NCBI RefSeq assembly: GCF_000495475.1
Contig: NZ_ASGZ01000060.1
Location: 1 to 64,000 of the forward strand
Direction of reading: 5' to 3'
Origin: Candidatus Halobonum tyrrellensis G22
Lineage (GTDB): Archaea; Halobacteriota; Halobacteria; Halobacteriales; Haloferacaceae
DNA: 64,000 nt
Shown: piece by piece, positions 48,246-49,899 of the stretch
How the letters are laid out: each line of letters opens with the position of its first letter
Numbering within the stretch: the stretch's first letter is position 1
Made by a program: the position numbers and the translations under genes
Notes under the pieces: generated by a model
Seen by the model: only the letters and a program-made list of their open reading frames with translations
Databases searched by the model: none
Told to the model about the DNA's origin: nothing

Positions 48246-48449
48246 TCAGTCCCGTCGTTGGACGACATCCGAGTGAACGAGCGCTCCGAGGATACCCGAG
48301 AACCCGAGGACGACACCGTGGAGTCGCAGGTTGGAGACTTCGCGTTTCTCCGAGTCAGCGTGCACGTAGTATCCGACGGTCGGTCAAAATACGAGTAGGT
48401 ACAGGCCGACCCGAACCAGCGGACCGTTGGACGCTGTCGAGAGGCTCAT
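48246..48449 (-). pseudogene. decayed small membrane protein (in-frame TGA)
   Basis: Reading from ATG 48449 gives MSLSTASNGPLVRVGLYLLVF, TGA (48384-48386), PTVGYYVHADSEKREV, and continues open through a second helix (LHGVVLGFSGILGALV) to TGA 48246. It would encode 67 residues with two membrane helices. A TGG-to-TGA change is the simplest explanation for the internal stop. Lower GC content than neighbours. Confidence 0.55.
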
Positions 48450-48548: not shown

Positions 48549-48792
48549 TCACCGATGCTCGTCTATCCACCGGCACCACTCGTGGAAGTCGTTCGCCCCG
48601 CTTGCTCCGCGATGCTCTGGAGCGATCCCACACGAACGCGGTCGTGAAGTGGGACGGTGACAGTACGCTTTTCGCCGGTTTGGGGGTGCGTGTACTTCGG
48701 AATCACGTGGTCGCCCCGCGTCCGGTCGTGTCGATAGCCGAACGTCCGAAGGACGTTGACGATATCCTCACCGAAAAGTCGCGTAAGACCAC
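48549..48792 (-). pseudogene. hicA: hicA toxin remnant, two frameshifts
   Basis: HicA mRNA-interferase remnant: GTG 48792 reads VVLRDFS, then a one-base deletion (about 48770-48773) shifts frame. The core EDIVNVLRTFGYRHDRTRGD, VIPKYTHPQTGEKRTVTV and PLHDRVRVGSLQSIAEQAG follows. A second one-base deletion (about 48594-48600) again shifts to the frame ending NDFHEWCRWIDEHR and TGA 48549. Restoring one base at each site gives an 81-residue protein of normal HicA length, with the catalytic His (in RGDHV) and the small dsRBD-like fold. Immediately follows hicB, as in functional modules. Confidence 0.82.
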
Positions 48793-48999
48793 CTACGAGG
48801 ACTCGAACCACGGCGCGTCCGGTTCCGGAGCGGGAGTGTCGTCGTCCTGCGCTTCCTCGGTCAGCTCGACCGCTTCATCGAGGTTGGCGAGTGCCTCGCG
48901 CCGCGTCGCCCCCTGACTCGCGACTTCCGTTTCTTCGTCGATGGCCGACTACTAGCCGTCGTCTTCCTCGATGAGTCGGATTTCGCGCCCGGTACTCAT
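48793..48999 (-). pseudogene. hicB: hicB antitoxin remnant, two in-frame TAG codons
   Basis: ATG 48999 reads MSTGREIRLIEEDDG, then TAG TAG (48949-48954), then SAIDEETEVASQGATRREAL, ANLDEAVELTEEAQDDD and APWFESS, ending TAG 48793. A HicB fold is clear from the ExxGWWxAxD-like strand and the EEALANLDEAVEL helix. HicB proteins carry a Trp pair where the two stops stand, so both TGG codons have become TAG. Everything after is otherwise open, which dates the loss as recent. Ends directly against hicA. Confidence 0.82.
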
Positions 49000-49278
49000 A
49001 CGAACAACCCGTGCGGATTCCGGGATAAGGGTTCGGTCGCGATCGGTGAGGGTCACACCGACGACGACCGAGGGCTAAATCCGACGAATCCTCCTCCCGT
49101 CTCTCGTCGCACCGAGGTCGGGCTATCACATTCCTGACTACCCTTCGCCCACCCTCCACGAGTATGAATTAGTAACGTCCGTAGTGTCTCTGACGGGATA
49201 CATTCCGGCCGACTTTGGGTCTATCCCACCGCTGTCTGCGAGTTAATGTGTTCGTACAAGGCGCGTACGGCAGAAAGA
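49000..49278. other. non-coding flank between hicB remnant and tRNA-Thr
   Basis: 279 bases with lower GC than the window average and no supported reading frame. No att-type repeat of the tRNA-Thr 3' end is seen in it. It may hold the former hicBA promoter. Confidence 0.4.
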
Positions 49279-49349
49279 GCCTAGGCCGGGATTTGAACCC
49301 GGGCTCTCGTCCTTACCAAGGACGCGCTTTACCGCTAAGCTACCCAGGC
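49279..49349 (-). tRNA. tRNA-Thr (anticodon GGU)
   Basis: 71-nt cloverleaf on the minus strand, no encoded CCA. Acceptor GCCTGGG pairs with CCTAGGC (one G-U); anticodon arm CGTCC-TTGGTAA-GGACG gives anticodon GGT; the T-arm CCCGGGTTCAAATCCCGG is perfect. It borders the decayed hicBA stretch, a common place for integrated elements. Confidence 0.96.
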
Positions 49350-49530: not shown

Positions 49531-49899
49531 ATGACGAACGCCCAGCAGCAGTGGCAGTTGTACGTCGAGGGGAACGCGCTCGTGGCGGACTTCCCGGCGG
49601 GCATGGACCTCGACGACGAGACGTTCGCGGCGGTCAACGAGCGGTTCGAGGAGTTGGCGAACCGGCCCGCCGTCGACACGCACGTGTCGGTGCTCCGCAT
49701 GGAGTCGCCGCTCCACAGCGACGTGTTCTCGCGGGCGCAGGAGGCGGCGCACGTCGGCAGCGAGTTCGGGATCACACAGTGGATCATCGTCTCCGACGAC
49801 ATCAAGAACCGCGCGCTGCGTAGCCGCATCGACGAGGTGCCCGGCGTGACGATCGAACTCGCGCGCGACCAGGACGAGGCGCTAGAACTCGCACAGTAG
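49531..49899 (+). CDS. 122-residue STAS-like cytoplasmic protein
   Basis: Alternating strands and helices: WQLYVEGNALVADFPAG, DDETFAAVNERFEELANRP, THVSVLRMESPLHSDVF, SEFGITQWIIVSDDIKNRAL and VTIELARDQDEALELAQ. This order resembles a STAS or anti-sigma-antagonist-like fold with a central LRME strand, but no conserved phospho-Ser motif is evident. It is common in haloarchaea as an uncharacterised protein. Monocistronic with its own TATA element; divergent neighbours. Confidence 0.75.
   Translation: MTNAQQQWQLYVEGNALVADFPAGMDLDDETFAAVNERFEELANRPAVDTHVSVLRMESPLHSDVFSRAQEAAHVGSEFGITQWIIVSDDIKNRALRSRIDEVPGVTIELARDQDEALELAQ

Follow-up and report, generated by a model that had tools for sequence, protein, structure and literature searches.

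A hicBA toxin-antitoxin pair lies in the gap beside a tRNA-Thr gene in the window, by which we mean the whole 64,000-nucleotide stretch of DNA analysed here, and its function has very probably since been lost through lesions in both hicA and hicB. HicA is a predicted mRNA interferase that is bound by HicB, forming a type II toxin-antitoxin system. The evidence comprises homology to intact pairs, the lesions themselves, the site, and an asymmetry in the state of the two genes among relatives.

Lesions in hicB and hicA

The features of the pair are listed here in the direction of transcription.

49024..49036 (-): promoter motif CCGAACCCTTATC (BRE/TATA-like), 25-37 nt upstream of the hicB ATG
48793..48999 (-): hicB antitoxin pseudogene of 68 codons (DUF7387/HicB-like), sharing 87-90% identity with intact relatives
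48949..48954 (-): TAG TAG at hicB codons 16-17 (Trp16-Trp17), the sole breaks in an otherwise open hicB
48925..48927 (-): Gly25Glu codon (GAA), private to the window hicB in comparison with intact copies
48549..48792 (-): hicA pseudogene (toxin, 81 residues past two one-base deletions), from Pfam and family alignment
48769..48772 (-), about 48771/48770: first one-base deletion, hicA codon 8 (Gly in most relatives)
48698..48700 (-): Leu32Pro codon (CCG), private, in the HicA core; Leu in 35 of 35 intact copies
48600..48602 (-), about 48601/48600: second one-base deletion, hicA codon 65 (Cys in relatives)

As the original prediction stated, hicB runs from 48999 to 48793 and is open except for two TAG codons (48954-48949). 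Its product matches the Pfam family DUF7387 (E=2.2e-12), and the consensus HicB of the intact relatives likewise yields only DUF7387 together with a weak UPF0150-like match. The further claim that the TAGs stand exactly where HicB proteins have Trp-Trp holds throughout for the second codon, which is TGG in all 35 intact copies aligned, but only partly for the first, which is TGG in 23 of the 35 and a Gly codon in the remaining 12. The window copy belongs to the TGG TGG group. Nonsense codons at Trp sites are unsurprising, since 24-48% of the one-step nonsense routes in hicB begin at TGG. The placement of both TAGs at Trp positions would also suit recoding or suppression, with TAG read as Trp and HicB still made. 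We reject this reading as extremely improbable: TAG is the normal stop codon of hicB itself and of a neighbouring 122-aa ORF, a third nearby nonsense codon at a Trp site is TGA and not TAG, and hicA is frameshifted whichever way TAG is read.

The reconstruction of hicA was borne out. Inserting N at codons 8 and 65 gives a protein of 81 residues that matches its family through to the family stop codon, and the open core alone matches the HicA_toxin model (PF07927) over 57 of 58 positions with E=1.4e-11 and 44.7 bits, above the cut-off of 27. The window HicA carries two private missense changes, Thr57Ser and Leu32Pro, the latter two residues past a His that aligns with a His of 1WHZ and that we presume to be catalytic. 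Alignment with intact haloarchaeal HicBA, which had been proposed as a check, revealed intact relatives free of this damage: the lesions of the window occur in none of the 35 aligned copies.

Sequencing or assembly errors in a pair that is intact in the organism are an unlikely source of these lesions. The sequence does come from a draft genome of 72 contigs, one of the hicA deletions adjoins a G pair, and the lesions are accompanied by few missense changes. However, a pair of like substitutions in neighbouring hicB codons is not a usual indel-type error, the second hicA deletion lies outside any homopolymer run, and a membrane-protein gene downstream is likewise broken by a substitution. The neighbouring DUF7114, NAD synthase and PHP genes are all intact, which argues against a generally error-ridden assembly.

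The first deletion does not close the HicA core but shifts it into another frame.

48563..48811 (-): 82-codon open frame, HicA core with altered ends, start codon GTG at 48811, within the 3' end of hicB

HicA residues 9-64 are uninterrupted in this frame, which also retains the presumed catalytic His. The promoter motif upstream is intact, and the solved 70-residue HicA-like protein 1WHZ, which lacks the C-terminal extension, can be aligned to the core, albeit with an E-value of only 0.09. A shifted product that is expressed as an active or weakened RNase, and is tolerated or reused without HicB, therefore deserves mention, but we consider it improbable: the frame lacks HicA's conserved N-terminal residues and its tail, carries Leu32Pro at an invariant site, and would act without an intact HicB as restraint. 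Intact HicA of this subfamily was accompanied by intact HicB in every case checked. The more specific version, in which the shifted 82-residue protein has lost toxicity, has kept RNA binding and outlives its antitoxin as a tamed core, is a shade less probable still. The open core, Leu32Pro, a second pseudogene downstream and the apparent hot spot on the tRNA side (below) were all overlooked in the original prediction.

The motif CCGAACCCTTATC, which we take to be a BRE/TATA element, is identical in sequence and spacing in intact relatives. Its distance from the ATG fits a leaderless hicB transcript, and transcription of the window pair may be ongoing, judging from the intact motif.

Age and order of the losses

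We gauged divergence by pairwise pN/pS and by counts of private residues. The mean non-synonymous distance of the window pair from intact copies of its own group is 0.121, within the 0.10-0.16 found among intact copies, and at sites that are otherwise invariant the window pair has three missense changes of its own (Leu32Pro, Thr57Ser and Gly25Glu), as compared with 0-4 in intact copies. Lesions aside, the window pair has thus diverged no further than intact copies have, and on the time scale of the family's divergence its decay is young. The proposed recent loss holds in these relative terms; synonymous sites are near saturation and therefore give no absolute date.

About 19 missense changes would be expected alongside each random nonsense change in hicB. 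With so few missense changes beside them, two nonsense codons and two indels are a little unusual, being somewhat above the expectation for neutral drift. One event that altered both codons of TGGTGG at once might account for this. This excess of damage and the HicA core that stays open from the GTG at 48811 count somewhat against simple decay.

The order of loss was addressed by searching with HicB and HicA in up to 170 genomes of the family, in 392 of the order, and in a contig collection. Open frames were inspected at each of 55 distinct hicB loci past the score cut-off, and classes were tallied by hand from the resulting tables. Intact pairs account for 35 loci, 18 have an open hicB with a broken or missing hicA, and at two, the window and one other (L053), both genes are broken. 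An intact hicA beside a broken hicB was found at none of the 55 loci, and the HicA-based search gave the same outcome. At 13 of the 18 antitoxin-only loci, hicA wreckage lies directly 3' of the open hicB. The start or end of the hicB frame is altered in a few of the 18. The genome with the closest HicB by protein identity (G029) has an intact hicB next to a hicA broken differently from that of the window. Weighted by gene length, an asymmetry of 18 to 0 has a chance probability of about 2e-5, and one of 13 to 0 about 4e-4; both values ignore shared ancestry, and the cases come from many genera.

The 18-to-0 asymmetry supports toxin-first loss as a rule for this hicBA subfamily. It had been argued that loss of the toxin must have preceded or accompanied that of the antitoxin. 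This stands as a rule, whereas "must" is too strong for a single locus, and for the window itself we infer that the toxin went before the antitoxin.

We considered and rejected the idea that the genome has a spare HicBA at another locus, as no second HicA was found in it and the only other DUF7387 match adjoins a PIN-like frame. This second HicB-like protein (contig C5:35743-35952) is followed by the PIN-toxin-like frame in place of hicA, possibly through an antitoxin partner swap. A viral origin of the pair was likewise rejected, no relative of HicA being detected in a viral collection at the sensitivity used.

The site beside tRNA-Thr

49277..49349 (-): tRNA-Thr (GGT), with hicBA on its 3' side
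48246..48449 (-): membrane-protein pseudogene, 67 codons, downstream of hicA, at the far edge of the insertion site

Homology to hicBA spans 48549-49039, between these two features, in agreement with the predicted position beside tRNA-Thr. The membrane-protein gene is interrupted by a TGA at 48386-48384, where intact orthologues have Trp, and is intact in G094 and G118, two related genomes. Taking hicB and this gene together, the three nonsense codons are all G-to-A changes in TGG.

The tRNA-Thr(GGT) gene is close to the DUF7114 gene in most relatives examined, and the contents of the gap on its 3' side vary. The membrane-protein gene of G094 lies ~100 bp 3' of the tRNA with no gene between them. 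In G118 the gap is occupied by a ParE-like pair and by an antitoxin of the MazE/AbrB type whose neighbour is PIN-like (L205 1510-3146). In G168 an RHH protein and its PIN-like partner are found there (L206 1564-2409), and this genome also has the tRNA 3' end in duplicate (L206 2937-2973). The PIN readings in both genomes were made by eye, Pfam giving no match. A copy of the tRNA-Thr 3' end beyond hicBA, as in integration with a tRNA-end repeat, was not found within the window. Across the subfamily, 9 of 29 hicBA loci lie within 1.5 kb of a tRNA, against about 1.4 expected if some 50 tRNA genes per genome are assumed; five of the nine are at tRNA-Ala(GGC) sites of one genus, and the pair was on the 3' side of the tRNA in every case seen. 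Differing toxin-antitoxin-like pairs sit on the 3' side of tRNA-Thr(GGT) across related genomes, an apparent hot spot.

Two further segments lie nearby. The segment 49059-49257 (-), just 3' of the tRNA, shows conservation across G118, G168, G072 and G104. It lacks an obvious gene and any Rfam match, and may be a remnant or a small RNA. A gene for 122 aa at 49531-49899 (+), between DUF7114 and tRNA-Thr and without a Pfam match, is probably another insertion at this tRNA.

We propose that a two-gene hicBA module with its own promoter arrived between tRNA-Thr(GGT) and the membrane-protein gene, at a site where related species have other toxin-antitoxin modules. Its function would then have been lost in this lineage, hicA suffering two one-base deletions and the change Leu32Pro, and hicB two TGG-to-TAG changes. 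The toxin was probably lost first, leaving the antitoxin free to decay, and presumably no active toxin is produced now.

Comparison with known toxin-antitoxin systems

A single such locus carries little weight, as toxin-antitoxin pairs come and go. The haloarchaeal comparison is of some use in that this subfamily often combines a broken toxin with an open antitoxin and, among the 55 hicB loci, never the reverse. Decayed haloarchaeal hicBA was not the subject of any study found in a literature search. Neither PADLOC nor NCBIfam models produced a match, and Rfam returned only the tRNA and one sub-threshold match on that tRNA.

In Class 2 hicBA, hicB comes first and encodes a HicB of 63-103 codons without a DNA-binding domain (Gerdes 2024, PMC10865869), and archaeal HicA loci are often Class 1 or 2 (PMC10865869). 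The window pair resembles this class in its hicB-first order, a HicB of 67-68 codons, a HicA of 81 residues and an archaeal host, and its gene order and spacing, with a small hicB directly 5' of hicA, are the same as in relatives. It differs from a working Class 2 system in that both genes are disabled, hicA by two frameshifts and hicB by two nonsense codons. The pair is ordinary in kind, a decayed, nonfunctional member of the small hicBA class.

Toxin-antitoxin modules are mobile and cluster in defence islands (PMC10865869). Similarly, related genomes have different toxin-antitoxin-like pairs 3' of tRNA-Thr(GGT), but the gap in the window is small and contains one dead module only. Orphan antitoxins are abundant, for example in a Klebsiella survey (PMC7192599), and the 18 relatives with an open hicB and a broken or missing hicA are of this kind, the toxin being lost and the antitoxin left. 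In the window, by contrast, the antitoxin is broken too, and the locus appears to represent a later stage, one late in toxin-antitoxin turnover on the 3' side of tRNA-Thr(GGT).
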